From assembly GCA_004299705.1 (NCBI GenBank), contig SCQS01000052.1, forward strand, positions 1 through 49,110: a DNA stretch of 49,110 nucleotides, read 5' to 3'. This document shows positions 19,325-35,700 of the stretch, one piece after another (position 1 is the first letter of the stretch; each line of letters starts with the position of its first letter). The notes beneath the pieces are model-generated. The model was not told the DNA's origin and searched no databases. It saw only the letters and a program-made list of their open reading frames with translations. The translations under genes and the position numbers were made by a program. Source of the stretch: Rhodanobacteraceae bacterium (GTDB lineage: Bacteria > Pseudomonadota > Gammaproteobacteria > Xanthomonadales > Rhodanobacteraceae).

Positions 19325-19409
19325 GGTTGCCTCCTTGCGATGTCAGTCGATGGTGGAATGCTGCCGTTCCGCCCGGACAGCAGCGCGCAACAGCATGCGC
19401 GTGCGCGCG

Positions 19410-19656
19410 CTACCAGATCTTCACCCGCTGGGCCGGTTGCAGGTACATCTTCTGGCCGGGCTGCACGTCGAATGCCTTGTACCACGGATCGAGATTGCGC
19501 ACGGTTTCGGCCGTAATTGCGTGGGCGTGGCGGCCGTCGCGGCCTTGGCCGCGAATGCGGCGGAAACCGCGGTAGCCAAGAACCGCCGGTGGGCGACTGC
19601 TACGGGCAGGCCGCGTACGCGATGGCGGCGACGAGGACGAGTTGGGTGCGCGGCAT
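19410..19656 (-). pseudogene. M13-family metallopeptidase remnant
   Basis: The last 34 or so residues (TVRNLDPWYKAFDVQPGQK then MYLQPAQRVKIW) match the C-terminus of neprilysin-type M13 peptidases, which end in a PGD/QxMY..P..RV.IW motif. The HExxH zinc site and some 600 residues are missing. About 200 bases upstream on the same strand, in another frame, ATG 19656 opens a signal-like stretch (MPRTQLVLVAAIAYAACP) that stops at once. A large internal deletion that joined gene start and end would explain both. It directly precedes a dispersed repeat (19754-19880). Confidence 0.55.
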
Positions 19657-19753
19657 GGTTTTTCTCGATGGGCAGAGCCCGGATGATGCACCGTTTGCGG
19701 CAGATTTTCAGGTGCGATGTATTGTTCTTTTTCCCTCGACTGGCCGCCGCTGT

Positions 19754-19880
19754 TCCTCCCCCTTCGGAACGAAGGGAGATCGAGGGGGATGGCTTTTCGC
19801 AGTACGACATCCCCCCGACGCTACGCGTCTCGCGCTTCGCGCGCGTTCGCTGCGCTCCGCCCTTCGTTTCGAAGGGGGTG
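19754..19880. repeat. CCCCCTTC-family dispersed repeat
   Basis: The second copy of the family found in truB, in inverted orientation. It has CTCCCCCTTC on the left, GATCGAGGGGGATGGC and ATCCCCCCGACGCTACGCGTC inside, and CGAAGGGGG on the right. It also contains alternating GCGCTTCGCGCGCG. It lies between the M13 remnant and hrpA, and its ends may have been involved in the deletion of the peptidase gene. Confidence 0.8.
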
Positions 19881-19928
19881 GGGCGTTGGAGGGATAGGAG
19901 ACATGCGGGCTCCAAGTACCATGTCGCG

Positions 19929-22900: not shown

Positions 22901-23906
22901 CGACCGGGTCGAATTGCCCGCGCATCTGCGAATGCGCTTCGAGGTGTTCGACGATTCCGGCCACGTGCTGTCGGCGGGGCGCGATCTGGAAGCGTTGCGC
23001 GAGCGCTGGGCCGAACGCGCACGCTCGGCGTTCTCGCGCAAGGCCGCAGTTGCCGTGGCGCGCGAGGATGTGCGCGATTGGGACTTCGACGAGATCCCAC
23101 GCGTTGCCGAAACGCGCGGTGGCCTTGCCGCGTACCCGGCGCTGGTCGACTTGGGTGCGACGGTGGCGTTGCGCGTGTACGAGAACCGCGACGAAGCGCG
23201 AGCTGCTCATCGCAAGGGCGTCGAACGCCTGTTGCGACTTGCACTGGCGGCGGAGTTCAAGCGTGCGCAGAAACAATTGCCGTTGCAGCCGAAGCTTGCG
23301 GTCGCGTTCGCGCCACATGGTCGCGCCGACGCGCTGCGCGAAGATATCGTCGAGGGAGCGTTCGCCGACCTGTTGCGCGAGCATGATCTGGATGTCCGCG
23401 ATCGGAATGCCTGGCAAACGCTGCACGATAGTGTATCGCGCGCGTTGTTCGCGGCAGCGATGGAGCGGCTCAAGCTGGCCGAACCCATCCTCGCGGCGCT
23501 GGCCGAATTGCAGCCGTGGTTGAAGCCAGCGATCAAGGGCCAAGCGCAGGCGAGTTACGCCGACCTGCGTGGCCAGCTCGACACATTGCTTGCACCGGGT
23601 TTCCTGCGCGACCTACCACGCGCACGGCTTGTCCACTTGCCGCGCTACCTCAAGGCGATGCGCCTGCGTGCCGAAAAACTGCGCAGCGATCCCGCGCGCG
23701 ACCACTCACGCATGCAACAGGTGCTGCCGTACTGGCGTGCGGTGCTCGATGCCCGCGCTTCGGGTGCAACGTCGGAAGCACTGGACGAACTGCGCTGGCT
23801 GGTCGAGGAATGGCGCGTGTCGGTGTTCGCGCAGGAATTGAAGACCGCCGAACCGGTTTCGGGCAAACGCATGGCACAAGCACTGTCTGCCATCGACGCG
23901 GCGTGA
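19929..23906 (+). CDS. hrpA: ATP-dependent RNA helicase HrpA
   Basis: A 1325-residue DEAH-box RNA helicase; E. coli HrpA acts on mRNA and on stalled or collided ribosomes. Motif I is GETGSGKTTQLPK (about 99), motif II DEAHERSLN, motif III SATIDTARF, and motif VI QRAGRCGRVGPG (about 395). An OB-fold region and the long C-terminal DUF3418 follow. Residues about 613-642 (reading SFPRKRESS...LHGVRNDE) are encoded by a dispersed repeat of 87 bases, 29 codons, so the frame stays open. ATG 19929 begins MESKHQPRGDHTPALHELE, the first start before the conserved N-terminus. It stands alone, with the accessory island starting downstream. Confidence 0.93.
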   Translation: MESKHQPRGDHTPALHELERLLDRASTRDAGKLRARLHALERKRPPAPEVLRKLAHEIAASVARREARAALVPEITLDESLPITQRADEIVGLIGKHQVLVIAGETGSGKTTQLPKLCLAAGRGVAGMIGCTQPRRLATRAMARRVANELGGEPGGVVGYEVRFAKQLGDDTRVKFMTDGILLAEMAHDRWLSAYDTLIIDEAHERSLNIDFLLGYLKQLLHRRPDLKLIVTSATIDTARFAEHFDGAPVVTVEGRAYPVELRYRPPEQESGLTERVVAALDDIAREDPKGDVLVFLPGEREIRDAHLALARRQYRHTEVLPLYARLSVKEQDRVFKPGPARRIVLATNVAETSLTVPRIRWVVDSGDARVKRYSRRSQIERLHIEPVSQAAANQRAGRCGRVGPGICVRLYDEADFAARPPYSDPEILRSALADVILRMLDLGLGDVESFPFLDAPDPRAVNDGWRRLAEIGAVDDARRLTPLGKQLARIPIDAQLARMLVEARKLGVFDEVLPVVAFLGTQDPRERPADKQQQADAAHAEFTDPQSDFIGVLNLWNAYRAAHEDLTQSRLRDWCGKRFVSFMRMREWRELHRQLLLGEAVGVKQGSQDSRSSFPRKRESSVSNVKTLDSGSPLHGVRNDEQDYSMPEFHQDIHLALLAGLPANVARKDEQGVYRGTRERRFKVFPGSALAKKPPQWLFVAQILDLGGKVWGMQCARIEPEWIERQAAHLLKRSCSDPHWSRARGAVQAYEQVSLFGLVLVERRHVVFAKQDAPLAHAIFLREALARCEIDGHADFVRANARVLDEARALEAQQRREGLVKSDEDLAAFFAGKLPGEISSSRALDAWYRRASASERAALRWSLADVLEAGAGSDAKAFPDALEVGNQRLRLDYRFVPGDEADGVTLRVPLALLNAVPAARCEWLVPGLLTDKVAELIRGLPKAMRRNFVPAPEFARAFVEAEVACDELLSKRLSTFLKKVTGVVVDAAEFDRVELPAHLRMRFEVFDDSGHVLSAGRDLEALRERWAERARSAFSRKAAVAVAREDVRDWDFDEIPRVAETRGGLAAYPALVDLGATVALRVYENRDEARAAHRKGVERLLRLALAAEFKRAQKQLPLQPKLAVAFAPHGRADALREDIVEGAFADLLREHDLDVRDRNAWQTLHDSVSRALFAAAMERLKLAEPILAALAELQPWLKPAIKGQAQASYADLRGQLDTLLAPGFLRDLPRARLVHLPRYLKAMRLRAEKLRSDPARDHSRMQQVLPYWRAVLDARASGATSEALDELRWLVEEWRVSVFAQELKTAEPVSGKRMAQALSAIDAA
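21766..21852. repeat. CGTCATTCC-family repeat inserted in hrpA
   Basis: The outer ends CGTCATTCC and GGAATGACG are inverted. Inside are ATTCCCGCGAAAGCGGGAAT and a second hairpin around AGTGTC...GACACT. Length is 87 bases. Related elements with the same outer TCATTCCGG...CCGGAATGA ends occur at 43669-43857 and 46212-46347. The inner ATTCCCGC...GCGGGAAT palindrome resembles repeat cores known in many proteobacteria. Confidence 0.85.
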
Positions 23907-24111
23907 TTGGCTTGGCTCTGAGGTTGCGGATGGTGGCGGTTGGGCTGGAGTCGGCCCGTTGCAGTCCCTCGCGACCGTCAGCAATCGGGAAGGCTGTTCG
24001 CGAACGCCTGAGTTGCCGTACGCGTGCACCTTTGCGGTTACTTCATGGCTCGTCACGAGGCCAGATGCTTGGCCGTGCTCAGACATGTAAGGTGCTTTAC
24101 GTCTGCGGTGC

Positions 24112-24408
24112 TCATCGTTTGTGTGTCCGCTGCATCATCTGCGCGCCCGCCTGCACCGCCTTCCGCGCTTCGGGTTGAAATTTCAGTCGCCGCTGTGTCT
24201 GCACGACACGCGCATAGTGAGCGGCCAGGTCACACGACGGAATTGTGTGCTGCTCGGCGATTGGGCGCCATTGCGCCACACAAGCGGCGAACGGTAGGAA
24301 TCGCAATGCGACACGAAGTGTCGCATAAGCGTGTTCCAATTCATCCAAATAAAGCCAGTGGCATTGCCGCCTCAGCCAGCCCCGAAGCAAACGCTCGTAG
24401 CGCGGCAT
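24112..24408 (-). CDS. Unrecognised small ORF, possibly a gene remnant
   Basis: From ATG 24408 it gives 98 residues (start MPRYERLLRGWLRRQCHWLY). The frame stays open upstream to about 24535 with protein-like composition (RWLFKRCSWATGSKPSQH, LAVLGTES) but without an ATG, GTG or TTG start, so it may have lost its true beginning. The region LDELEHAYATLRVALRFLP looks like an amphipathic helix, and the tail is basic. No family is recognised. It contains the 24306 palindrome inside its coding stretch and overlaps the leader of the divergent gene at 24523. A chance frame is the alternative. Confidence 0.3.
   Translation of the reverse strand: MPRYERLLRGWLRRQCHWLYLDELEHAYATLRVALRFLPFAACVAQWRPIAEQHTIPSCDLAAHYARVVQTQRRLKFQPEARKAVQAGAQMMQRTHKR
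24306..24326. promoter_or_regulatory. 21-bp palindrome, copy 1 of the island operator
   Basis: ATGCGACAC and GTGTCGCAT are perfect inverted nine-base arms around GAA. It agrees at 18 of 21 positions with the palindrome at 27241. It lies 197 bases before the start at 24523, so it may serve a promoter with a long leader. The binding protein is inferred to be the WYL regulator encoded at 26162-27169. Confidence 0.65.
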
Positions 24409-24522
24409 TGACTCGGTACCGAGTACGGCGAGGTGCTGCGATGGCTTGGAGCCCGTGGCCCACGAACATCTCTTGAACAGCCATCTCTTGACATCTTTGG
24501 CCCGAGGAGGCGCGATAACCCC

Positions 24523-24831
24523 ATGTATCTATATGGACAAGGCGATGTATTGCTCAAACAGGTTTCCCAGCTTCCAAGCAAAGCGGTACCCGCGGCCAAC
24601 ACCCGCCGTATTGTGCTTGCCCATGGAGAGGCGACGGGACACGTTCACGCTGTTGATGTCTCGGACGCGCAGGAGTTCAGGCTCGGTATGGCGCGCCGGT
24701 TCATCAAAGTCGTCCGTGGCGCGATCGTGACCCACGAGGAACATGCGGCGATTCCGCTACCCCCCGGCATCTATGAAGTTGTGCAGCAGCGCGAATACTC
24801 GCCAGAGGCAATCCGCAATGTCGAAGATTGA
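24523..24831 (+). CDS. Small conserved protein paired with DUF6745 gene
   Basis: A 102-residue protein starting MYLYGQGDVLLKQV, with the conserved-looking core RRIVLAHGEATGHVHAV (about 28-44), FIKVVRGAIVTHEEHAAIPLPPG and an end REYSPEAIRNVED. From memory, proteins of this type, with GEVTGHAH and HEEH/PPGxYxVxxQREY motifs, occur next to DUF6745 proteins in several phyla; their function is unknown. The several His and Glu residues could bind a metal, which is speculation. ATG 24523 has AGGAGG twelve bases upstream, a rather long spacing. Its stop overlaps the next gene by 14 bases, so the two are coupled. Confidence 0.72.
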   Translation: MYLYGQGDVLLKQVSQLPSKAVPAANTRRIVLAHGEATGHVHAVDVSDAQEFRLGMARRFIKVVRGAIVTHEEHAAIPLPPGIYEVVQQREYSPEAIRNVED

Positions 24832-26032
24832 TTGCAACAGGCTGCTCGAAGACTACGTAGCGGCATGCAATTACCCGGGGGCCTTCGACGCGTGGGCGAT
24901 CGAGGAGAGTCTGCGCGAATATCTACGACTCATCGGCGCTGACCGGAAAGTAGTGAGGCTCAGCTCGCTCCAGCGCCTTTCCGACAACCCGTCGTTGGAG
25001 CAGCAAGTCCGCATGATTGTCCGACGACTCAGTTACGGCGAAGATTCGGCGCAAGGCTGTCGCGATGCCATTGTTCGTCGCGACTGTCCGCAACGTCTCT
25101 CCGTACTCGAGCTGTTGTACCACGACGACATCCGGAAAATAAGGCCTGTCCATGCTTTTGATGAAACCCGCCTCTACGAAACCCATGTTGCCGCTGATGC
25201 GGCTTGCGTCACCCGCGCACTAAGGACAGCCTCCATCCGTTACGTTCAGACGATTTGCCGTGATCGCAAGGCCGTCGTTGGCGACGTTCAGATGCTTCAA
25301 TTCGCACGCTGGTGCGTACAGCTCGCCGGTACAAGGGATTGGGGCGATGAACTTCACTGGTGTGGGTTCTCCTACGTCACTGCTGTGAAAAATCGATCGC
25401 GCCGGATCGTCGCGTGGCTGCGGCCCCTGTACGATGCCTTCGTCTCCGGTTGCTGGATGCTGCACTGGACGGCTGACACCCTGTTCTGGGTTGCCAAGCC
25501 GACGGTGCACACGGATGCAGGCCTCTTGCCGCGGCTTCACAATGCCAATGGTCCGGCACTCGGATCGGATGTCGAGGATCTTTACTCATGGCATGGTGTA
25601 GTGGTGCCAGCACACGTTATCACCCATCCGCAGTCGATCACCCCAGACGAGATAGATCGCGAGATCAATATGGAAGTACGACGGGTGCTGATCGAGCGTT
25701 ACGGCGTCGGTCGTTACTATCGTGATTCCGGTGCGCAAATCATCCAGCGCGATACCAGTGGCCTTCTATATCGCAAAACCATTCCAGGTGAGGAGCCGGT
25801 CGTCATGGTGCGGGTGCTCAATTCCACGCCTGAGCCCGATGGGGTGATGTCGCGAGAGGAGGCCATCGAGATATTTGGCAATGCGGCTTGTGCTGCCCTC
25901 AACGCACCGGAAGGATCCCGTTTCAAAGAATACATGCTTCGCGTACCCCCTGATATTCGCACCGCGAGAGAAGCTGTCGCATGGACTTTCGAGTTGCAAG
26001 CCGATGCCTATCACCCATCAATTGAATCTTGA
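24818..26032 (+). CDS. DUF6745-domain protein of unknown function
   Basis: A 404-residue cytoplasmic protein with no signal peptide or membrane segment. The C-terminal half has the pattern I associate with DUF6745: LHNANGPALGSDVEDLYSWHG, VPAHVITHPQSITPDEID, EVRRVLIERYG, DTSGLLYRKT, VMVRVLNSTPEPDG and YMLRVPPDIRTAREAVAWTF. The N-terminal half is helical, with an aromatic-rich middle (FWVAKPTVHTD). Function is not known for the family. ATG 24818 is used because it lies in the end of the preceding small gene and begins MSKIDCNRLLEDYV. The gene pair ends convergently to the WYL gene, 129 bases away. Confidence 0.7.
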   Translation: MSKIDCNRLLEDYVAACNYPGAFDAWAIEESLREYLRLIGADRKVVRLSSLQRLSDNPSLEQQVRMIVRRLSYGEDSAQGCRDAIVRRDCPQRLSVLELLYHDDIRKIRPVHAFDETRLYETHVAADAACVTRALRTASIRYVQTICRDRKAVVGDVQMLQFARWCVQLAGTRDWGDELHWCGFSYVTAVKNRSRRIVAWLRPLYDAFVSGCWMLHWTADTLFWVAKPTVHTDAGLLPRLHNANGPALGSDVEDLYSWHGVVVPAHVITHPQSITPDEIDREINMEVRRVLIERYGVGRYYRDSGAQIIQRDTSGLLYRKTIPGEEPVVMVRVLNSTPEPDGVMSREEAIEIFGNAACAALNAPEGSRFKEYMLRVPPDIRTAREAVAWTFELQADAYHPSIES

Positions 26033-26161
26033 GCAGTCGATTGCGTTCGCGGCTGTTCCAGGCACATATCCGGACGATGTGTCTGGTGTGCTCCACTTTC
26101 ACTTCAGCCGTTTTGAGCCGTACAAAGGAATCGGCGTGGAGTGAGTACGGTTAAGGTCCCG

Positions 26162-27169
26162 TCAGCGCTGCTTCCCGCTGTATTGACGCGCTGCCTTGTC
26201 GAGCGAAGCCGCCATGGATTGCCGCAGCGATTTCGGAGCCAGAACCTCAACGGAAGCGCCAAAGCTCATCAACCACCAGCGCATTGACATCGTGTCCTGC
26301 ACGGTGGCCGTAAGATGTGCGCCGTAGCCAGCTTTGGTTCGCTGGACCTTCTGATCGCTCGACAACGGGCGTTCTTCAAAGAAAGTTTGCACGCCTTGGC
26401 CAAGCCGCAGCTTCAGCTTGATTTGCTGCCCGACCGGCCAATCAAACTGCCGCTCGTTTTCAATGTAGTTGCGGAGATCGAACCCCTCGGGTTCGTGCAA
26501 TGGTCGCTCTAATCTCACGGGATTCTTCATCCTGTGCAGGGCAAACAGAGGGATGTGGTTCGAACCCTCGCGTGTACCAACCAAGTAGGTCATGCCCTCG
26601 CGGTGCACCAGGCCCAAGGGATTGAAGGTGTAGCGTTCGGGCTTCGCACCAACCGCACGGTAGTCTGCTTCGAACTGCAGGCCGTCCAGCAAGGCGTTGT
26701 AAACCACCTCCACGACCCCATCCGGGATGACAACCGGCAACCGTGCCGGACCGGATGGCACCATGGCAACCCTGTGCCGCCACTTCCCGAACTTGCCGCT
26801 GTCCAAGGTACGCCGCGCCTCGTCGAACTGCGGCCGCCAAATCTCGAGCAGGCTTCGGGGCCATAGTGGCACCAAGTACTGCTCGATCATGTTGAGCGTC
26901 AAGGCGCTCGGAGCATCCAGTACCGGGAGAACGAGAGGCCGGGCATTGCGCTTGTAGGACCAACCTGCTGGCTTGGCATCGTCCGTGACAAGGCCCATTG
27001 GGTGTTTCAGCTTTTGCAGATCCCGCTGGACGCTGCGGAGGTCGATCTCGAACCCAAGCAACCTGAGCTTCTCCTGCAATGCACGGGCAGGAACCTTGCC
27101 GGGAAGCCGCGGAATCAGGCCCAGCATGGTGATCAGCCTTGCCAGGCTCGTGGGCAATTCTTCTGTCAT
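26162..27169 (-). CDS. WYL-domain transcriptional regulator
   Basis: A 335-residue protein with an N-terminal winged helix-turn-helix (about 8-60, ending in SVQRDLQKL), a middle helical region (LNMIEQYLVPLWPRSLLE) and a WYL domain at about 150-225 (ADYRAVGAKPERYTFNPLGLVHREGMTYLVGT and IPLFALHRMKNPVRL). A WCX-like C-terminal extension follows (LKLRLGQGVQTFFEERPL). This is the layout of BrxR/CapW-type regulators that control many anti-phage loci and may sense nucleic acid or nucleotide ligands. It is divergent from the double-AAA gene, with a 128-base gap that holds the promoter and a palindromic operator (27241-27261). Repressor function and self-regulation are inference. Confidence 0.85.
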   Translation of the reverse strand: MTEELPTSLARLITMLGLIPRLPGKVPARALQEKLRLLGFEIDLRSVQRDLQKLKHPMGLVTDDAKPAGWSYKRNARPLVLPVLDAPSALTLNMIEQYLVPLWPRSLLEIWRPQFDEARRTLDSGKFGKWRHRVAMVPSGPARLPVVIPDGVVEVVYNALLDGLQFEADYRAVGAKPERYTFNPLGLVHREGMTYLVGTREGSNHIPLFALHRMKNPVRLERPLHEPEGFDLRNYIENERQFDWPVGQQIKLKLRLGQGVQTFFEERPLSSDQKVQRTKAGYGAHLTATVQDTMSMRWWLMSFGASVEVLAPKSLRQSMAASLDKAARQYSGKQR

Positions 27170-27217
27170 GTCGTTGGCCTTCGCGACGTTTTCGGGAGTC
27201 TATGCCGCTCCGTGGCT

Positions 27218-27245
27218 TTGACTCGCAGACTAGGAACGGTATACG
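27218..27245 (+). promoter_or_regulatory. Promoter of the double-AAA gene
   Basis: TTGACT (27218-27223) and TATACG (27240-27245) are separated by 16 bases. The palindrome at 27241-27261 covers the -10 and the start site, the usual place for a repressor to block initiation. Confidence 0.6.
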
Positions 27246-27261
27246 ACACGATCTGTCGCAT
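27241..27261. promoter_or_regulatory. 21-bp palindrome, copy 2, at the WYL/AAA divergent promoter
   Basis: ATACGACAC-GAT-CTGTCGCAT: the inner arms CGACA...TGTCG are perfect, the outer bases slightly off. It differs from copy 1 at three positions only. A further half site, TTTGTCGCA, follows at 27275-27283 just before the ribosome-binding site. Confidence 0.75.
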
Positions 27262-27297
27262 TGTACAGGCATCATTTGTCGCAAGGAGGCCACTGCG

Positions 27298-29445
27298 ATG
27301 ATCAACCTCGACATCGACGATATCGAAGACGACCCAGAACAGGACGAAGGCAAGACCAAGAAGTACGTGCTCAAGGAGTTCGACTCCAGGCTCGATGCCA
27401 TGGGCGCGTTGTATGCCCTGCGCATCGTGCGAAACGCGCGTGTCTATAGGCGTGTATTCGAGCGTAGCAGCTACGTCGACGACGAAATTTTCGAGCTGCT
27501 TGGCCTCGCACCAGGAACCAAGCGCACCAGCCCTGACAAGGCATACTCGCTGCGATCGGCAATCAAGCGGCAGGCGGTTCTCGCCGAGTCCGCGATGTCG
27601 TCCCGTCGTGATGTCTTGGCACGCAATATTGGGAAGCTCGGCGACACACTGCGTTTCTCGGACGACGAACGCCGCATACTCCATCTTGCAGTCATCACAC
27701 GGAAGGTGTCGGGTTTCACGGAACTGTGGTCGAATGCCTCACTTTCGTCAGAAGGTGTATGTGAGGCCATCGGGCGCGCGGTCGGCATGACAGGGGCGGC
27801 AGTAGGCAAGGCACTTCGGCCGAATGGACGGCTGTGCCGGAGCGGCCTTTTCGAGACGGCTCGTATTTTTTTGGACGACCGCAACCCGCTTGAGTTGAAT
27901 TCGCGTGTGGGGGGTGCACTGGTATCCCCGCGCTTCGAGATTGAGCAGTTTCTGCGCTGCCTCATCCGCAAGGGCGGCAAGCCGCGCCTGAAGCTGGAAG
28001 ACTACTCCCACATCGGCGAGGCCGAGCTTGTGCGTCGGTATATGATGGACGCAAGCGCCCATCACCGGAAAGGCGTCAACGTTTTGCTGTATGGCCTGCC
28101 GGGCACTGGAAAAACAGAGTTCGTGCGCGCGCTGGCCGGCGAATTGAAGCTGGAGCTCCATGAAGTGCCCAACGAGGATTCGGACGGCGATCCGATTCGG
28201 GGCAACCAGCGATTCTCCTCCTACGCGATCTGCCAGAAAATCCTGGCCGGAAGGCGGCGGCAGGTGATCCTGTTCGATGAAGTCGAGGACGTTTTTGGCA
28301 ACAGCGCGAACGCGTTCCTCGCCCTGTTTGGGCGCTCATTCACAGACGACTCCCGGCTTGGCAAGAGCTGGACCAACGAGATCCTCGAAACCAACCCAGT
28401 CCCGACGATCTGGGTATGCAATGACATTGGCGCCATGGACCGAGCCTACCTGCGCCGGTTCGACATGGTGGCGGAATTCCGGGCGCCCGGGCCTGCGGCC
28501 ACGCGCAAGATGATCGAGCGATACTTCCGGCCCCACGAGATCTCCGATGCCTGCGCAGAGCGGCTGTCCACGGTCGAGCAACTTCCGCCGGCCCAGATCG
28601 AACGTGTTGCCAAGGTCGTGCGTTCGCTGCGAAGCACCAGTATCGAGTGCCGGGATCGTGAGGTACTCCGGCTCGTCGAGGCATCCATGCGCGCCATGGA
28701 TCTGAAGGCCGCTGTCCCTACCGCGCCATTGCCGGCGCATTACGATCCCGCGTTCATCAATGCGGATAGCGATCTGGGCTTGCTCATCAAGGGCCTTGGC
28801 CAAGGCGCCGGTGCGCGGATGTGTTTCTACGGCCCACCCGGCACGGGCAAGACCGCGTTCGCCCACCACTTGGGCCGGAAATTGGGGCAGCCCGTGCAAG
28901 TCAAGCGCAGTTCCGACTTGCTGGACTGCTACCTCGGCGAAACGGAAAAGAAGATCGCCAATGCGTTCCGGGGCGCGCAAGAAGCCCATGCCATCCTGGT
29001 CATCGACGAAGCCGATGGCTTCCTGCGCGACCGCGCGGGCGCTTCCCGAAGCTGGGAGGTCACCCAGGTCAACGAACTGTTGACCCAGATGGAGGCCTTC
29101 GAGGGAATCTTCATCGCCTCGACCAATCTGGTCGACACCCTCGACGCGGCCTCCCTTCGGCGGTTCGACTTCAAGGTGAAGTTCGATTATTTGACTAGCG
29201 CGCAACGGCGTAGCATGCTGGCGCGCATTGCGTCGACTGCCGGGGAAAGCACCGACGAAGGCTATCGTGCTTTGGCAGAACTCGATCGTTTGGAAACGCT
29301 CACACCCGGCGACTTCGCCAATGTGTTGCGCCAGCTCCACGTTACAGGGGCAGCCCCTACGGCTACTTTGATCGTGCAGAGGCTCAAGCAAGAGGCCGCG
29401 ATGAAGCCGGAAGGCCACAAGCACAGGATCGGGTTTCTACGCTGA
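27298..29445 (+). CDS. Double AAA+ ATPase, candidate defence-island protein
   Basis: A 715-residue cytoplasmic protein. Residues 1-220 are a helical N-terminal region of no known family. AAA domain 1 has Walker A LLYGLPGTGKTEF (about 266-273), Walker B VILFDEVEDVF and sensor WVCNDIG, and ends with YLRRFDM. AAA domain 2 has Walker A FYGPPGTGKTAF (about 512-519), pore-like YLGETEKKI, Walker B ILVIDEADGF, sensor IASTN and arginine finger LRRFDF. The second domain is classic spastin/FtsH-like AAA and the first is more divergent, which suggests a Cdc48/ClpB-like two-ring machine. ATG 27298 follows AGGAGG. A short gap of 32 bases leads to the next gene, probably one operon. Its partner or substrate is unknown. 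Confidence 0.82.
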   Translation: MINLDIDDIEDDPEQDEGKTKKYVLKEFDSRLDAMGALYALRIVRNARVYRRVFERSSYVDDEIFELLGLAPGTKRTSPDKAYSLRSAIKRQAVLAESAMSSRRDVLARNIGKLGDTLRFSDDERRILHLAVITRKVSGFTELWSNASLSSEGVCEAIGRAVGMTGAAVGKALRPNGRLCRSGLFETARIFLDDRNPLELNSRVGGALVSPRFEIEQFLRCLIRKGGKPRLKLEDYSHIGEAELVRRYMMDASAHHRKGVNVLLYGLPGTGKTEFVRALAGELKLELHEVPNEDSDGDPIRGNQRFSSYAICQKILAGRRRQVILFDEVEDVFGNSANAFLALFGRSFTDDSRLGKSWTNEILETNPVPTIWVCNDIGAMDRAYLRRFDMVAEFRAPGPAATRKMIERYFRPHEISDACAERLSTVEQLPPAQIERVAKVVRSLRSTSIECRDREVLRLVEASMRAMDLKAAVPTAPLPAHYDPAFINADSDLGLLIKGLGQGAGARMCFYGPPGTGKTAFAHHLGRKLGQPVQVKRSSDLLDCYLGETEKKIANAFRGAQEAHAILVIDEADGFLRDRAGASRSWEVTQVNELLTQMEAFEGIFIASTNLVDTLDAASLRRFDFKVKFDYLTSAQRRSMLARIASTAGESTDEGYRALAELDRLETLTPGDFANVLRQLHVTGAAPTATLIVQRLKQEAAMKPEGHKHRIGFLR

Positions 29446-29477
29446 TCGCGAGTCACACAGCAAGAAGGAATCAGAAC

Positions 29478-30428
29478 ATGCTCGAGCATAATTCAAGCGC
29501 GCCGACGGGAAAGCGCACGCGCAAGTCAACGATGCCGGAGATACCTTGCCGCTGTCTTGCGCTCGTCGCCTGCGACTGGAAGCGTCAAGGAGCATCTGAC
29601 CGAACACTGTCGGACAGCGAGCTCAAAAGCAAGCGGAAAAGAAATCAAAAGATTGAAACAGGATTTGCTCCCCACTTCGCAAAAATAGTACGCATTGCGA
29701 GCGATCACGGCGCGGACACAATCCTGTTTTCACCTTGGAGCCACACCGTTACAAAAGCCCGTGATGAGCTTCGCCATGCAGATTTGTTTCCCAAGGGTAC
29801 GAAGCACCAAGCCGTAATTCTTGGTGTGCGGCGACGCAACAACGCAAAAAAAGCAAAAAATAAATACCTAGAAACGATTGAAGTTCACACTCGATCAAAG
29901 CAAAGATCGTATCCAATATTTCAGCAATTTTCTACAACGAGAGACAAAAAACAGCGTAAGAGAGACAAAAAACAGTGTAAGGAAGAAGATTTCATGGATG
30001 ACCTTCGAAATAGACGGTGTGGCAAGGTCACGGCATTCATTTGTGGTGAAACTAACATAGTCAGCGTAAAGAGAGCCAAATCAAAGGGCGGCCACCATGT
30101 GGTGGTGGATAAACGCAACGTTCGCGCTTTGTTGGACGCAAACGGCGTTCGTGTCGTCCTCAACCCGGTCCACGACTATATGACGTGGAAAATGAAACCA
30201 AAGCGAGCGGCTTTGTCATCCGAAAAGCGCACCGTCGTTAGTGTTTGGAATCGTGGATACAAGAAACGCGAAGCAAAAATTCCTTGGACAGTGTATTGGG
30301 GCGACAAAACGGCGGATTGGCGCGACCAAGACGCGAGCCCTGAGGTCGAGGAACTGCCCGATGTTTGTACTTGGCCAGTTAGTCCTGACGAACCCGGCGT
30401 CAGGATTGGCATCCTGAAGCTGCGTTAG
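29478..30428 (+). CDS. Unknown protein with possible nitrilase (CN-hydrolase) fold
   Basis: A 316-residue, very basic protein. I do not recognise it directly. The element order suggests a carbon-nitrogen hydrolase: a first strand LALVACDW, FAKIVRIASDHGADTILFS where the family has a strand ending in PE, GKVTAFICGETNIV (C at the place of the nucleophile), VRALLDANGVRVVLNPVHD and KRAALSSEKRTVVSVWN, with a final strand RIGILKL. The usual catalytic Glu after the second strand is not evident (SPWSH instead), so activity is uncertain. A 21-base tandem duplication (29941-29982) gives RDKKQRKRDKKQCK. Codon use is more AT-rich than its neighbours. It lies 32 bases after the AAA gene. Nitrilase domains are known in some reverse-transcriptase defence systems. 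Confidence 0.5.
   Translation: MLEHNSSAPTGKRTRKSTMPEIPCRCLALVACDWKRQGASDRTLSDSELKSKRKRNQKIETGFAPHFAKIVRIASDHGADTILFSPWSHTVTKARDELRHADLFPKGTKHQAVILGVRRRNNAKKAKNKYLETIEVHTRSKQRSYPIFQQFSTTRDKKQRKRDKKQCKEEDFMDDLRNRRCGKVTAFICGETNIVSVKRAKSKGGHHVVVDKRNVRALLDANGVRVVLNPVHDYMTWKMKPKRAALSSEKRTVVSVWNRGYKKREAKIPWTVYWGDKTADWRDQDASPEVEELPDVCTWPVSPDEPGVRIGILKLR
29941..29982 (+). repeat. 21-bp tandem duplication inside the nitrilase-like gene
   Basis: GAGACAAAAAACAGCGTAAG at 29941 is repeated at 29962 with one change (C to T) and a change of the last base. The unit is 21 bases, so seven codons are doubled without a frame change. Confidence 0.85.
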
Positions 30429-30498
30429 GAGTCATGCCACAAGAGCCGACTTCGCTTGTCGCGACGTTGCCAGCGGGTTCGGTTGGTCGGCTGCCTGC

Positions 30499-30533
30499 AA
30501 CGTGAGCAGGTGTTCCAACCTGTGCTCACGGTT
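30499..30533. terminator. Hairpin between convergent operons
   Basis: AACGTGAGCAGGT and ACCTGTGCTCACGGTT pair as a long stem with small bulges around a six-base loop. It sits between the ends of the plus-strand ATPase operon (30428) and the minus-strand GIY-YIG gene (30532). No strong T tract follows, so it is a possible bidirectional stop rather than a canonical terminator. Confidence 0.45.
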
Positions 30534-30927
30534 ACAGCTTGCCCTCGCCAAGCCCCAAGTGAGCGGGGCAATGCCAAGCCACGGCACAGCTCTCGAGAAG
30601 TGCGCGCGCTCGTGCGTCTGGCACGGCGAGGCATTGATACGTGTAACCATCACGTAGCCTTTTGCCTTCTCCGTGCAGAAAACTTTTGACGAACGACGAC
30701 TGCCCCGCCAAGTGATCGTTGAGGCGCTGTCGCAGGCCCTTGTTGCCCCGGAGGGTGCGCCCGACGTGGACGACGGCGCGTTTGGAATCGCGAATTACGT
30801 AAACGCATTGCTCGAATGGAGCGGTCAGCCTGCCGCGTGGCGGCGGGAACTTCGTCAAGGGCTGCTTGTTCAGCAACCGACGCAAGCGTGTAATGTTGGC
30901 TCGCTCATTTGAAGCCTGCTTCTTCAT
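30532..30927 (-). CDS. GIY-YIG-like endonuclease-fold protein
   Basis: A 131-residue protein. The GIY-YIG core shows as EQCVYVIRD (42-45 VYVI for GIY), VVHVGRT (about 54-58 for YIG plus Arg), LRQRLNDHLAGQSSF with the conserved Arg and His, and a Glu in ARALLESCAV (E about 112) at the metal-binding place. The first 35 residues are basic (ERANITRLRRLLNKQ) and may bind DNA or RNA. ATG 30927 follows CAGGAGGG eight bases upstream, a strong site that decides against the longer frame. It is the last gene of a minus-strand cassette after the exonuclease and the ADP-ribosylglycohydrolase. Function could be nuclease defence or repair. Confidence 0.68.
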   Translation of the reverse strand: MKKQASNERANITRLRRLLNKQPLTKFPPPRGRLTAPFEQCVYVIRDSKRAVVHVGRTLRGNKGLRQRLNDHLAGQSSFVKSFLHGEGKRLRDGYTYQCLAVPDARARALLESCAVAWHCPAHLGLGEGKL

Positions 30928-31025
30928 TATTCGACCCTCCTGAAAGTGATGGGTCAATTCACGACCCAGTTGTCGCCATTCTTCAGTGGCGCACTGCGAG
31001 CCGCCGGCTCCCTTGCGCAAGCCTT

Positions 31026-31481
31026 TTAGCGGCGCTCGGGTACGGCCCACCTGTTGGCCCGTGCATCGTGCAACGCATGATGCCGGGTTGCGGTGTGCAG
31101 TAGGAAGTAGTCTTCCAACTTCTGCTTGTCCAGCGATTCCCAGACATTGGTGACGGTGAGGTTGGCAGGCATGTCTTGCCCAAGCAACCGCGCCAGCAGC
31201 AGCCAGTCACCGTCGTAATCAACCGCAATCTCGGGCTCCGGGATCGTCGCCAACCAGCCAAACACCGCGTACTTCAATTCGTTGCGGCCCGCCTGGAGTA
31301 CGCCTTCCGCGCCCAGCAGCGGCAACACTTCCAGCGTGACGAAGTCGGTGCACTTGCCCAGGTCGAATTCGGTGCACTCGGCATAGAACTCGCGGCCATC
31401 CTCAGCCACCATCCCGATGCTGATCAGGTCGGTTTCCGGATCGTTCCAATCGACAAACTCGGTGTCCAGGAATACCTGCAT
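31026..31481 (-). CDS. DEDDh 3'-5' exonuclease-like protein (Rv2179c type)
   Basis: A 151-residue single-domain protein. It begins MQVFLDTEFVDW, with the first DEDD motif (D6, E8), has PEIAVDYDGDWLLLARLL for the second, and HHALHDARANRWA near the end, the HxxxxD motif of the DEDDh class. The short length and DLISIGMVAEDGREFYAEC match the small 3'-5' exoribonuclease family with Rv2179c of Mycobacterium tuberculosis (DUF5051). ATG 31481 follows GGGGAATC and starts directly at the catalytic strand. It stands 98 bases before the GIY-YIG gene and 103 bases after the hydrolase gene on the same strand, so co-transcription is likely. Confidence 0.75.
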   Translation of the reverse strand: MQVFLDTEFVDWNDPETDLISIGMVAEDGREFYAECTEFDLGKCTDFVTLEVLPLLGAEGVLQAGRNELKYAVFGWLATIPEPEIAVDYDGDWLLLARLLGQDMPANLTVTNVWESLDKQKLEDYFLLHTATRHHALHDARANRWAVPERR

Positions 31482-31584
31482 GAGATTCCCCGTTCCGCTT
31501 CCGCAAGCATACGCACCACCCGTCGCAGATACCGAGACAGTCGAGCCCTCGTTCTGGAGGGGTACGAGGGCTGCTGCGACGGCG

Positions 31585-32529
31585 TCATGTTGTTGCGCCC
31601 GGAGCACCAAGCTTCCTGCGTGCATACATGGTCTCGGCAAGTGATGTGATGTCTTCTCGCAACGCAAGGCGGGCCAGCCACGGTGCAGGAATGCCCGGTT
31701 TGCCGTAGAACGCACCGGCTACCTGGCCGCAAATTGCTGCGGTGGTATCAGCGTCCTCGCCAAGGTTCGCGGCCAGGAGGATCGCATCGCGGAATGACGT
31801 GGTGGAGTCGAAGGCCCACAGTGCAGCCTCGAGGCTGCGCACGACATAACCCGTGCCGCGTATTTCTTTCACGGGCGTGCCACGGTAGCTCCCACGAGCG
31901 ATGGCCGAGATTTGGCCCGCAAGAGCCGGGTGGCCTGAATCGGCGAACAGCACATCGGATTTCGACTCGCCGTGCAGCGCGCGGACCAATATCCTCGCCA
32001 ACAGGCGGCATGCATCCACGCACTCGATTGCACCGTGGGTAGTCCGCGAACTTTCTGCGGCGTAGCGTTCGGCGGCCTCGATATCATGCGCATAAAACAT
32101 CGGCACGGGAGCCAACCGCATGATGGAACCGTTGCCGGCCGTGTCCGGGTCTGCCGATCCCGCATACGGATCCCCCGTCGCCTCGTAATGTTGAAGCGCG
32201 CTGTTGACCGTACGGCCGATGTCGAAACACTTGCCGGTGCTGCTCAGGTATCCGCCATTCTGCCAGCGGCAATAGCGATCCATTTGGTCTTTCGCGTCGA
32301 ATCCTCCGCATTCGACCAGGCTGGACGCCAAGCACAGAGCCATGGACGTGTCGTCCGTCCATTGGCCGGGTTCGAGATCGAATGGACCGCCTCCGACCAT
32401 GTCATTGATGGGCTCGAACGTCCCGGGCGTCGCAAATTCGAGCGTGGTTCCGACCGCATCGCCCACCGCGAGCCCGAGCAGGCAACCGCGGTAGCGTGAA
32501 CGAAGATCAGGCGATGGGTTTGCTGGCAC
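31585..32529 (-). CDS. ADP-ribosylglycohydrolase family protein
   Basis: A 314-residue all-helical hydrolase that removes ADP-ribose from proteins, nucleic acids or small molecules (DraG/ARH family). The N-terminal SRYRGCLLGLAVGDAVGTTL and QWTDDTSMALCLASSL (TDDT 58-61) give the first pair of Mg ligands, NGSIMRLAPVPMFY is the substrate loop, and NLGEDADTTAAICGQ (D259, D261, T262) the second metal site, so all catalytic residues are kept. The start is GTG 32529 (MPANPSPDLRSRYRG); no better start is seen. A 21-bp palindrome lies about 85-105 bases upstream. It is the first gene of the minus-strand cassette. In defence islands such enzymes often counter ADP-ribosylation or act on NAD-derived signals. 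Confidence 0.87.
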   Translation of the reverse strand: MPANPSPDLRSRYRGCLLGLAVGDAVGTTLEFATPGTFEPINDMVGGGPFDLEPGQWTDDTSMALCLASSLVECGGFDAKDQMDRYCRWQNGGYLSSTGKCFDIGRTVNSALQHYEATGDPYAGSADPDTAGNGSIMRLAPVPMFYAHDIEAAERYAAESSRTTHGAIECVDACRLLARILVRALHGESKSDVLFADSGHPALAGQISAIARGSYRGTPVKEIRGTGYVVRSLEAALWAFDSTTSFRDAILLAANLGEDADTTAAICGQVAGAFYGKPGIPAPWLARLALREDITSLAETMYARRKLGAPGATT

Positions 32530-32612
32530 AGGCGTGGCCCATGTGACATGGGGCGGTTACATCGAAGGCTCTCACCCCAGTCACCCCGCACTCCATACAG
32601 TCTCGCACAGTG

Positions 32613-32633
32613 CTGCGACAACATGTGTCGCGC
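32613..32633. promoter_or_regulatory. 21-bp palindrome, copy 3, upstream of the ADP-ribosylglycohydrolase
   Basis: CTGCGACA-ACATG-TGTCGCGC: TGCGACA and TGTCGCG keep the arm sequence and spacing of copies 1 and 2 (15 of 21 identical to copy 1). It sits in the only non-coding stretch between the minus-strand cassette and the RND permease end, so it most likely controls the cassette. Confidence 0.6.
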
Positions 32634-32716
32634 CGCAGGATGGCGGACGTGCGACGTTCGTCCGCTATGAGGCAGTACGATTTTGGCCGCGACTGTCTCC
32701 TCAGGGTCGGATATCG

Positions 32717-35700
32717 TCATGGTTGTCGGTCATCTGGCGGTCCAGCGGCAGGCGCGGGCGGCCTTGCCTCATCCAGCTTGTCGCCGGCGGCGCGGCGAAC
32801 GCTCACGTAGAACACCGGGATCAGCAGCAGGCCGAAGAAGGTGGCGAAGATCATGCCGCCGATCACGCCGGTGCCGATTGCGTGGCGGGCGTTGGCGCCG
32901 GCACCGGTGGATATGAACAGCGGGAACACGCCCAGCATGAAGGCCAAGGACGTCATCAGGATCGGACGGAAGCGCAGCTTGGCGGCTTCGATCACGCCGT
33001 CGCGCAGGGTCTTGCCGAGTTTCTGTTCGGCCACCGCGTATTCCACGATCAGGATCGCGTTCTTGGCGGCGAGGCCGATCACCGTGATCAGGCCGATCTT
33101 GAAATAGATATCGTCGGCCAGCCCGCGCGCCATGGTGAAGACCACGGTGCCGAGCATGGTCAGCGGCACGATCAGCAGTACCGAGATCGGGATCGACCAG
33201 CTTTCGTACAGCGCCGCCAGCGCCAGGAACACCACGAAGATCGACAGCAACATCAACATGGTCGCGGCGTTGCCGGACAGCAATTCCTGGTACGACTGGC
33301 CGGTCCAGTCGTAGCTGAAGCCGTGCGGAAGATCCCGGTTGACGATCTTCTCCATCGCCGTCATGGCATCGCCCGATGCGTGGCCCGCGGAGGGCGAACC
33401 CACGATCTCGGTTGCGGGGTAGCCGTTGAAGCGCGTCAGCGACGGCGACACCATTTCCCATTTGCCGTGCACCACGTTGGAAATCGGGATCATCGCGGGC
33501 GTGCCGTCGGGATTGGTTTCGGTGCTGCTGGGCGTATAGAAGTGGCTGAACGCGGCTTCGCTCATGCGGTACGGCGCGGCGGCCTGCATCATCACGCGCT
33601 TCACGCGGCCGGCGTTGGTGAAGTCGTCGACGTACACCGGCGCCAGCATCAGGCTGATCGCGTTGGAGATGTCGCCGATCGACAAGCCCATCGACGCGGC
33701 CTGCAGGCGATCCACCGTCAACTGCAATTGCGGCGCCGGCGGCAGCGCATTCGGGTGCACGCCCGCCAATACCTTGTCCTGCGCGGCCTTGGTCAGCAGG
33801 GTGCGGGTGGCCTGGTCGAGCGCCGGGCGCCCGGAACCGCTGCGGTTTTCCAGGAACATGTCGAAGCCGCCGAACTGGCCGAGGCCCGACACCGTCGGCA
33901 CGTTGACGACGAAAATGGTGGCGTCGCGGATTTGCTGGTGCATCTGCAGGTTGGCGCGCTGGATGAACTGCATCGCGCTGACGTCGCGCTTGCTCCAATC
34001 CTTGAGCTTGATGAAGGCCATGCCTGCGTTTTCGCCCGAACCCATGAAACTGAAGCCGGTGATCTGCATCACGCCGTCCATGGCGCTGTCCTTCGACAGC
34101 ACCGCGTACATCTTGCGCATCACGGCCTCGGTGCGGTCCTTGGTGGCGCCCGGAGGCAGTTGCACGATCGCCATTGCGTAACCCTGGTCCTCGTCGGGCA
34201 GGAAGCTGCCGGGCAGGCGGGTGTAGAGGAACCCGGCCAGCACCGCCACCACCGCGAACACCGCCATCCAGCGTGGCGCGTGGTGCACGGCGCTGGCGAT
34301 GTGCCCCGAATAGGTGCGGTGGGTGCGCTCGAACACCTTGTTGAAGGTGCGGAACACGATGTTCTTTTTCTTTTCGTGTTCGGGCCTCAGCAGGCTGGCG
34401 CACAACGACGGTGTGAAGGTCAGGGCCAGGAATGCCGAGAACACCATCGACACCGCGATGGTCAGCGCGAACTGGCGGTAGATGATGCCCGACGCCCCGG
34501 GCTGCAAGGCGGACGGCACGAACACCGCGATCAGCACCACGGTGATCGCGACCACCGCGCCGCTGATCTGGCCCATGCCCTTGCGGGTCGCCGCCCGCGG
34601 CGAAAGGTTCTCTTCCGTCATCAGGCGTTCGACGTTCTCGATCACCACGATCGCGTCGTCGACCACGATGCCGATCGCCAGCACCATGCCGAACATGGTC
34701 AACTGGTTGATGGTGAAGCCGAGCACCCGCATGCCCAGGAACGCACCCAGCAACGCGATCGGGATCACGATGGTCGGGATGATCGTGGCGCGGATGTTCT
34801 GCAGGAACAGCAGCATCACCAGGAACACCAGCACGATCGCCTCGAACAGCGTCTTCATCACCTCGTCGATGGAGATCGTGACGAAAGTGGTGCTGTCGTA
34901 GGGGGAGAACCAGGTGACGCCCTGCGGGAAACTCGTCTGCAGGCGGTTCATTTCCGCGCGTACCGCCTTGGCGACGTTCAGTGCATTCGCGCCGGGCAGC
35001 AACTGGATCGCGAAGCCGGCGATCGGTTTGCCGTTGTAGCTGGTGTTGAAGCCGTAACCCTCGGGGCCAAGGCCGACCGTGGCAACATCGCCCAGCGTCA
35101 CCGCGGTGCCGTCGCTGTTGGCGCGCAGGATGATGTTGCGGAATTGCTGCGGCGTGGTGAAACGCCCTTCGCCCGCAACGTTGGCGGTGAAACCCCACCC
35201 CTTGGTCGCGGGGTCGGCGCCCAGAGAACCCGCCGCGAACTGGATGTTCTGAGCACGTACCGCGTTCAACACGTCGGTCGCCGACAGACCGTAACCGTGC
35301 AGCTTGTCGGGGTTCAGCCAGATGCGCATCGCGTATCCGGCGCCGAACTGCTGGGTGCTGCCAACGCCAGGTACGCGTGAAACCTGGTCCAGCACCTGCG
35401 AGGCGACGATGTCGTTGAGGTGAGCCCAGTCGATGTTCGGGGTGTTGGAAGTCAGCGCCACCACCATCAGGAAGCCGGAGTTGGCCTTGGCGACCACCAC
35501 ACCCTGTTGGGTGACTTCCGAGGGCAGGCGCGGCGTCGCCAGCGCGACCTTGTTCTGCACCTGCACCTGCGCGATATCGGGGTTGGTACCGGATTCGAAG
35601 GTCAGCGTGATCTGCACGCGACCGCTGGAACTGGTGGAGGAACTGAAATACAGAAGGTTGTCGATGCCGGTCAGTTGCTGCTCGATCACCTGCGTCACCG

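Follow-up and report, generated by a model that had tools for sequence, protein, structure and literature searches.

Can three separate transcription units of unrelated enzymes, gathered in one bacterial island, answer to a single sensor? The question is raised by a stretch of 49,110 nucleotides from a Rhodanobacteraceae bacterium (assembly GCA_004299705.1, contig SCQS01000052.1, positions 1 to 49,110; hereafter the window), in which the original prediction had joined three matched palindromes to a neighbouring WYL-domain regulator. The palindromes accompany a gene pair that includes a DUF6745 protein, a tandem-AAA ATPase gene divergent to the regulator, and an ADP-ribosylglycohydrolase operon. 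How defence-type genes are silenced and switched on is poorly known. Our sequence comparisons point to a single WYL-linked, multi-operon regulon, which we consider well supported, and activation of the kind described for DriD of Caulobacter crescentus is the favoured reading of how it might act. The claim of one WYL regulon over three units therefore stands as a WYL-linked multi-operon regulon, based upon a conserved site, its tie to WYL genes, sites at the promoters of stand-apart WYL genes and sites at other operons. Simple repression is unsupported, because the conserved order is site, 9–10 bases and –10, as at DriD activator promoters.

Three palindromes in the window and the genome

The palindromes at 24306, 27241 and 32613 are present in the sequence, and a comparison by eye gives 18 of 21 matching positions for copies 1 and 2 and 15 of 21 for copies 1 and 3, as had been reported. 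Operator 1 (ATGCGACACGAAGTGTCGCAT; 24306–24326) has the core GCGACA-N5-TGTCGC at 24308–24324, 198 bp before the start of sm102 in the sm102–DUF6745 pair. Operator 2 (ATACGACACGATCTGTCGCAT; 27241–27261) has the core ACGACA-N5-TGTCGC at 27243–27259, in the intergenic stretch from which the WYL and AAA genes diverge, and operator 3 (CTGCGACAACATGTGTCGCGC; 32613–32633) has the core GCGACA-N5-TGTCGC at 32615–32631, approximately 86 bp upstream of the ADP-ribosylglycohydrolase start. Each of these placements was confirmed, with one site per promoter stretch and a common core of RCGACA-N5-TGTCGC.

A genome-wide scan for the three-site pattern, which the original prediction had proposed, found the exact core RCGACA-N5-TGTCGC in only four places in the 3 623 273-base genome, three of them within the 8.3 kb of the island. 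The fourth (C40:1608) was taken as a chance match rather than a regulatory site, as it lies inside a coding open reading frame (ORF) of 543 amino acids. Only the exact core is informative at this scale, because one-mismatch matches (35 and 37 on the two strands) were close to the reversed-pattern control (29 and 24). The loose pattern is likewise unremarkable in the window, where GCGACA-N5-TGTCGC with up to two mismatches gave 10 matches against 6.7 expected; the two exact matches and the one-mismatch match at 27243 are the three sites, and a further one-mismatch match at 25964 lies within the DUF6745 gene. Across 61 genomes (our own and 60 relatives) RCGACA-N5-TGTCGY was found in 37, at 0–4 copies each and 64 in total against 57 for the reversed control, so a lone copy per genome means little, whereas three in 8.3 kb is far from the background.

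Conservation of the site and its tie to the WYL regulator

The WYL profile was too poorly conserved to serve as bait for the genome collection, and the AAA alignment was therefore used for the scan, a choice that tilts the main sample in favour of AAA loci. The best 80 of at least 417 confirmed loci were taken and, with five reached via the WYL protein, make up 85 AAA loci; the pairs L025/L026 and L097/L107 look near-duplicate and were retained in the conservation, WYL-tie and –10 counts. Upstream of the AAA gene, the site was exact in 12 of these loci, within one mismatch in 38 and within two in 50. Sixty permuted half-sites gave means of 0.03, 0.3 and 2.7 (maxima 1, 3 and 11) at the same three levels, and other spacers from 0 to 11 bases gave no exact site, at most one with one mismatch and 3–6 with two. 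Among the site-positive loci are those of beta-, gamma- and zetaproteobacteria, Geobacter and one acidobacterium.

These results bear upon the simplest alternative, that three similar but functionless palindromes fell by chance into one window. At two mismatches the copy number in the window is indeed not above that of 15 of 100 shuffles. Against this, three of the four exact cores of the genome cluster here and the site is kept at the same promoter in distant bacteria, and we find chance scarcely credible and take it as refuted.

Two further kinds of palindrome were seen near AAA genes. A looser GACA-N5-TGTC lies upstream of AAA in L093, L034, L035, L038, L041, L053 and L086, loci with a weak usual operator or none; these are perhaps diverged operators. 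In L079 (9700–9960), which lacks the usual operator, a variant palindrome, ACGTCA-N5-TGACGT, occurs twice, once on each side of the intergenic stretch between the AAA and YbjN genes.

The WYL regulator itself is patchily distributed, being found in 7 of the 61 genomes and in 30 of 369 genomes of the class (our own included in both), and the tandem-AAA gene shares its locus with a WYL gene in five of the six related loci that were fetched. With WYL presence defined as a BLAST E value below 1e-20 and the search carried as far as the AAA start given by the alignment, the site (up to two mismatches) was present in 35 of 37 loci with WYL, compared to 17 of 48 without (Fisher p 8e-9). Looser definitions of WYL gave p values of 5e-7 and 4e-4, and at one mismatch the tie ranged from 4e-4 to 0.05 across the definitions. 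The association was retained when loci were collapsed at 60 % AAA identity (58 clusters; 26/28 with WYL against 13/30 without, p 6e-5) and at 50 % (33 clusters; 13/14 against 7/19, p 0.001).

Some WYL genes elsewhere, beside which the original prediction had proposed to look, also carry the palindrome: besides the 35 AAA loci above, it was found both before WYL genes that stand apart from AAA and in a WYL-centred sample. Among 32 WYL genes counted as non-divergent to AAA, five have a site with up to one mismatch before the start (60 permuted half-sites: mean 0.03, maximum 1), of which two (L025 and L077) actually face the AAA gene. Stand-apart WYL genes with a site are those of L029 (exact), L042 (one mismatch) and L047 (two mismatches). 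The WYL-centred sample comprised 28 new loci from 32 matches, in which sites were sought over the whole stretch of about 4 kb; it may share species with the AAA sample. Sites were exact in five, within one mismatch in 11 and within two in 18, against permuted means of 0, 0.5 and 5.8 and maxima of 0, 3 and 15.

These data also allow us to weigh a reading in which there is one regulon, with the palindromes bound by another transcription factor and WYL as no more than a frequent neighbour. The 17 site-bearing loci without a found WYL gene would fit such a factor. The co-occurrence in 35 of 37 loci (in 26 of 28 clusters once related loci are merged), the sites at stand-alone WYL promoters and the WYL-centred sample all argue the other way, as does the agreement of the site with the box of DriD, a known WYL protein, and we judge this reading improbable.

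Promoter geometry and probable mode of action

Forty AAA promoters, the window included, were aligned on the site (up to one mismatch). A TATAAT-like peak was present 9 and 10 bases downstream of it (z 4.2 and 4.7), and the pattern nAnnnT occurred in 15 and 17 of the 40 promoters at these offsets, compared to 0–7 at others. On the opposite side of the site the mean TATAAT match at 9 and 10 bases was 1.07 and 1.85 of 6, compared to 2.27 and 2.42. In the window, –10-like hexamers lie 10 bases downstream of each operator: TCCAAT (forward strand, 4/6) on the sm102 side of operator 1, CATCAT (forward strand, 4/6) on the AAA side of operator 2 and GAGACT (reverse strand, 3/6) on the ADP-ribosylglycohydrolase side of operator 3. 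A strict consensus scan of 24100–33000 returned zero sigma-70-type promoters. With a –10 at 9–10 bases after the site, the –35 would fall inside the palindrome and no consensus –35 would be possible. The site at 27241 had been described as overlapping the –10 of the double-AAA promoter; this was not upheld, as the conserved –10 lies downstream and the strict scan gave no sigma-70 promoter.

DriD is a transcription activator of the WYL family that is itself activated by single-stranded DNA (ssDNA); its box is ATACGAC-N7-GTCGTAT, and it binds across the –35, with a weak –10 at constant spacing (PMC12340889). Matched by eye to this box, site 2 (ATACGAC-N7-GTCGCAT) agrees at 13 of 14 positions, site 1 (ATGCGAC-N7-GTCGCAT) at 12 and site 3 at 9, with the inner CGAC-N7-GTCG intact. 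When solved structures were searched with the WYL profile, the top matches were PafBC, WYL domain-containing and DeoR-family chains, 8TP8 included. The spacing of the –26 motif of PafBC is, we presume, similar to the spacing seen here. The entry 8TP8 is a C. crescentus structure with ssDNA (PMC11804915).

The same regulon could instead be governed by a WYL repressor of the CapW or BrxR kind, which would occupy the three promoters until an infection-derived ligand (ADP-ribose, perhaps, or some other nucleotide) releases it. The site geometry (about 20 bp with a 5-bp spacer) resembles the inverted repeats of BrxR, which has two boxes in one island (PMC9122601), CapW palindromes of 19–24 bp overlap the –10 (PMC9122588), and repression lifted by ADP-ribose or nucleosides has been proposed for ADP-ribosylglycohydrolase-centred (ARG-centred) systems with WYL regulators (PMC9503650). 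A site over the –35 region would block polymerase too. The conserved –10 lies 9–10 bases downstream, however, and the –35 position inside the palindrome is non-consensus; upstream of the site, TTGACA was matched at a mean of 1.95 of 6 positions at best, a value without a shuffle control. At the AAA promoters the palindrome was not found overlapping or just downstream of the –10, as it is with CapW and BrxR, and no solved-structure match was named BrxR or CapW (E ≤0.01 for the profile and ≤1 for the single sequence, in a set unchecked for the presence of such chains). We consider this repressor unlikely, and favour activation over repression at the –10 because the core fits the DriD box and the weak –10 places the site over the –35.

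Further operons and membership of the enzyme cassettes

A search for further operons covered 86 loci (1.28 Mb) and found 43 exact copies of RCGACA-N5-TGTCGY, 24 in AAA/WYL promoter zones and 19 elsewhere. One of the latter (L095:9964) is an AAA promoter, which leaves 18 sites away from AAA/WYL promoters; 29 permuted cores gave a mean of 0.3 and a maximum of 3. A site with up to one mismatch preceded the start of DUF2779 genes in 5 of 19 cases, SIR2 in 2/11, PP2C in 1/3, HDAC-like in 1/3, NERD in 1/2, 5'-nucleotidase in 1/3, an unnamed family in 2/2 and FtsZ_C-like in 1/2, whereas permuted half-sites gave at most one in each family. No such site was found before FtsZ (0/5), a helicase–RNase H family (0/5) or PcfJ (0/1).

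L030, whose AAA protein is nearest to that of the window (54 % identity) among the best 80 of at least 417 loci, has sites before DUF2779, PP2C and SIR2 genes, and its AAA/WYL site has two mismatches. In L031 a site lies directly before a SIR2 fragment at the contig edge, and in L147 a one-mismatch site lies between the matched WYL gene and a divergent SIR2 gene. A one-mismatch site between WYL and HsdM genes in L139 (1–1450) suggests that type I restriction may be under the same kind of control. Overall, SIR2 was found in 14 of the 86 loci (two of them weak matches) and ADP-ribosylglycohydrolase in three; NAD/ADP-ribose enzymes recur, in a minority of loci. In L047 (9885–14432), FtsZ/tubulin-like genes adjoin a divergent DUF2779 gene, with an exact site in between.

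As to the two enzyme cassettes of the window, placed with the AAA gene under WYL in the original prediction, the ADP-ribosylglycohydrolase link recurs directly once, in L145, where an exact site lies between divergent WYL and ADP-ribosylglycohydrolase genes. Relatives of the window's ADP-ribosylglycohydrolase occur within the AAA locus in L071, L079 and L104. The L104 locus also has an R-P type phosphatase, and that of L079 Macro, YbjN, McrBC, GIY-YIG and SIR2 genes. In L079, the row YbjN–Macro–McrBC–GIY-YIG–HD is divergent to AAA, and the ADP-ribosylglycohydrolase and WYL genes lie 3' of AAA. In L141 (128–2466) an R-P phosphatase is fused to ADP-ribosylglycohydrolase and followed by a WYL frame with one in-frame stop. 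The ADP-ribosylglycohydrolase genes of six relatives have no site at up to one mismatch; two-mismatch matches were found in L121 (within that ORF) and L122.

The sm102 and DUF6745 genes form a conserved pair in two relatives (L111 and L112; 43–44 % and 25–32 % identity). DUF6745 is rare: among 197 relatives three have a match, as do three among 369 class genomes (our own included in both, one of the latter being below the cut-off), and no site with up to two mismatches was found in five DUF6745 stretches from four other genomes. DUF6745 was therefore rejected as a conserved regulon member and is kept as a single-genome prediction, the pair's putative membership being supported only by the site in this genome. 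In seven genomes with a site-less ADP-ribosylglycohydrolase or DUF6745 gene (G059 and G056 included) WYL was also not found; because WYL is absent there, the lack of a site agrees with the model and is no test of it.

Gene content of the island

The island lies between an hrpA-like helicase gene (19218–23906; Pfam helicase and DUF3418) and a gene that by eye is RND-transporter-like. Gene starts are mechanical first start codons, and the Pfam scan covered 10 window genes. On the forward strand, sm102 (24523–24831) encodes a small protein without a Pfam match and is followed by the DUF6745 gene (24818–26032; 404 amino acids, PF20530 E 5e-43). The WYL-WCX transcription regulator of 335 amino acids, the putative operator binder, is encoded on the reverse strand (26162–27169), with WYL (E 1e-11) and WCX (E 5e-14) both above the cut-off; for its N-terminal helix-turn-helix the profile gave only a weak hit, to arginine repressor (E 0.009).

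The tandem (double) AAA ATPase, the frequent partner of WYL, is encoded on the forward strand (27298–29445; 715 amino acids, AAA E 3e-41 in two stretches). It was considered and rejected as IetA of the IetAS defence system: its AAA domains match IetA models (PADLOC, E 4e-37), but the NCBIfam score was 112 bits against a cut-off of 510. IetAS consists of the single AAA protein IetA and a subtilase partner, and among the 10 scanned window genes no match named a protease partner. The ORF 3' of the AAA gene (29478–30428, forward strand; 316 amino acids) has no family match above the cut-off and zero BLAST relatives across the 86 loci; by eye it is rich in lysine and arginine.

The remaining genes lie on the reverse strand. 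ADP-ribosylglycohydrolase (31585–32529; 314 amino acids) matches PF03747 (E 2e-79) and NF041672 (E 2e-100, below its cut-off). It is accompanied by a 3'–5' exoribonuclease-like gene of the Rv2179c/RNase AS type (31026–31481; PF16473 at E 3e-5 and NF033638 at E 2e-14, neither reaching its curated cut-off) and, as gene 3 of the operon, a GIY-YIG-like gene (30532–30927; PF01541 E 0.018, below the cut-off), the starts of the latter two being inferred. G004, a single contig, offered no simple empty site for the island, its hrpA-like gene lying at 1.43 Mb and its RND-like gene at 0.59 Mb.

Proposed mechanism and significance

Taken together, we consider it fairly probable that the three palindromes are WYL-WCX binding sites through which ssDNA would trigger DriD-type activation of three operons. 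Operon 1 (sm102–DUF6745), operon 2 (tandem-AAA and the 316-amino-acid ORF) and operon 3 (ADP-ribosylglycohydrolase, RNase-AS-like and GIY-YIG-like) would come under one control. Each would have a DriD-type box, RCGAC-N7-GTCGY, at about –39 to –23 over the –35 region, in a promoter with only a weak –10. A WYL dimer might take ssDNA, or a similar nucleic acid that signals damage or infection, in the WYL groove, and the loaded dimer on the box would aid RNA polymerase in starting at the weak promoters, turning the whole island on together. The products may then work as a module against stress or phage, taking off ADP-ribose marks and breaking down RNA or DNA; the AAA protein is a candidate unfoldase or remodeller within it. 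What the computations show directly is where the sites lie, how far they are conserved, that they go with WYL, and where the –10 sits at AAA promoters; that WYL binds them and activates transcription, that ssDNA is the signal and what the island does for the cell are inferred.

Several of our results weigh against this proposal. In 36 of the 85 AAA loci there is no site in the upstream region searched, although among these L095 has an exact site before the true start, L032 has a two-mismatch site and L104 has one before its first AAA gene. The loosest WYL definition, taken with one mismatch, brings the tie to p 0.05, and the 17 of 48 loci that carry the site without a found WYL gene count here too, although eight of them are on contigs of <10 kb and WYL could lie beyond the contig. 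The AAA promoters have a further TATAAT peak, of lesser height, at 21 bases (z 3.6), and away from them the –10 pattern was found in 9 of 21 gene-facing directions, three of which are WYL genes. Operator 3 combines just 9 of 14 DriD positions, the inner core being kept, with a –10 of 3/6. Similarity of the WYL protein to DriD and PafBC chains is confined to the WYL-WCX part (profile positions of about 131–331), the DNA-binding part lying outside. Lastly, L071 and L141 have no site before ADP-ribosylglycohydrolase, though the gene is beside WYL or AAA, and the sm102–DUF6745 pair of two relatives has none, WYL also being missing there.

More tentatively, and short of an even chance in our estimate, WYL activators with DriD boxes across Proteobacteria and beyond may each run one regulon triggered by damage or infection, in which a single nucleic-acid sensor governs several unlinked immune-type operons. 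That broad regulon would span tandem AAA, SIR2, ADP-ribosylglycohydrolase, Macro, DUF2779, PP2C, HDAC-like and even type I restriction genes, as a modular and swappable composite response; this wider span we hold with the same reserve. The data suggest a set of unrelated, probably protective enzymes turned on together. If one ssDNA-sensing WYL activator does drive many unlinked operons by way of a short box, that box could be used to find further members, since a gene preceded by GCGACA-N5-TGTCGC in the vicinity of such a WYL gene would be a candidate; DNA damage control of the DriD type would be joined to ADP-ribose/NAD conflict systems; and the uncharacterized tandem-AAA family and DUF6745 would gain a testable setting.

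Apparently new are a box held in common, its occurrence before many operons and the connection to DriD. A literature search conducted largely without subscription journals found no paper with 'DUF6745', from which we claim no absence from print; the same search found none with 'WYL' and 'DUF2779' together, and 'WYL domain' with 'ADP-ribosylglycohydrolase' in PMC9503650 only.

Comparison with known systems

The regulon shares with BrxR of pEFER a WYL regulator with more than one box, as inverted repeats with a 5-bp spacer, in a defence island. BrxR is, however, a repressor, with 11-bp repeats downstream of the predicted –10 and a second box before the brxA promoter (PMC9122601). A putative WYL homodimer on a palindrome in the promoter of a conflict operon is a likeness to CapW of CBASS, whose palindromes are of 19–24 bp; CapW differs in being a repressor with a palindrome that overlaps the –10 and in having the CBASS operon as its target (PMC9122588).

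ARG-centred systems, which combine ADP-ribosylglycohydrolase with a WYL or Nudix regulator and carry no ADP-ribosyltransferase, were predicted in 2022 to reverse viral ADP-ribosylation; a phosphatase is coupled in little over 55 % of them and a chaperone gene often (PMC9503650). The window likewise combines ADP-ribosylglycohydrolase and WYL with no ADP-ribosyltransferase among the 10 genes scanned, and relatives of the locus (L104, L141 and L079) add R-P phosphatase, Macro and YbjN. Among the same 10 genes there is no Pfam match to a phosphatase (R-P included) or a named chaperone. Section 3.8 of that paper mentions neither a tandem AAA nor DUF6745, and neither a common box nor control of several operons, which sets the window apart (PMC9503650).

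PafBC and SiwR of mycobacteria are WYL proteins and both are ssDNA-binding activators, as is proposed here (PMC11804915, PMC10693628). A further likeness is the palindrome of SiwR, of 19 bp, between the –35 and –10. PafBC differs in being a heterodimer that uses a –26 motif and shows no promoter DNA binding without polymerase, and SiwR in controlling DinB-like genes (PMC11804915, PMC10693628).

Several parallels can be drawn with DriD. The targets named for it in PMC12340889 (didA, bapE, recJ, dnaG and CCNA_03891/01149) set it apart from the window, as the paper labels none of them an AAA or ADP-ribose enzyme. In common are a WYL domain with a winged helix-turn-helix (a weak match in the window) and several separate targets, a bidirectional promoter at the regulator's own gene, and a box that reads ATRCGAC-N7-GTCGCAT at window sites 1 and 2 compared to ATACGAC-N7-GTCGTAT in DriD (PMC12340889). 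At AAA promoters the likeness extends to the layout, the –35 being covered by the site and a weak –10 following at constant spacing; at other genes it is weaker.

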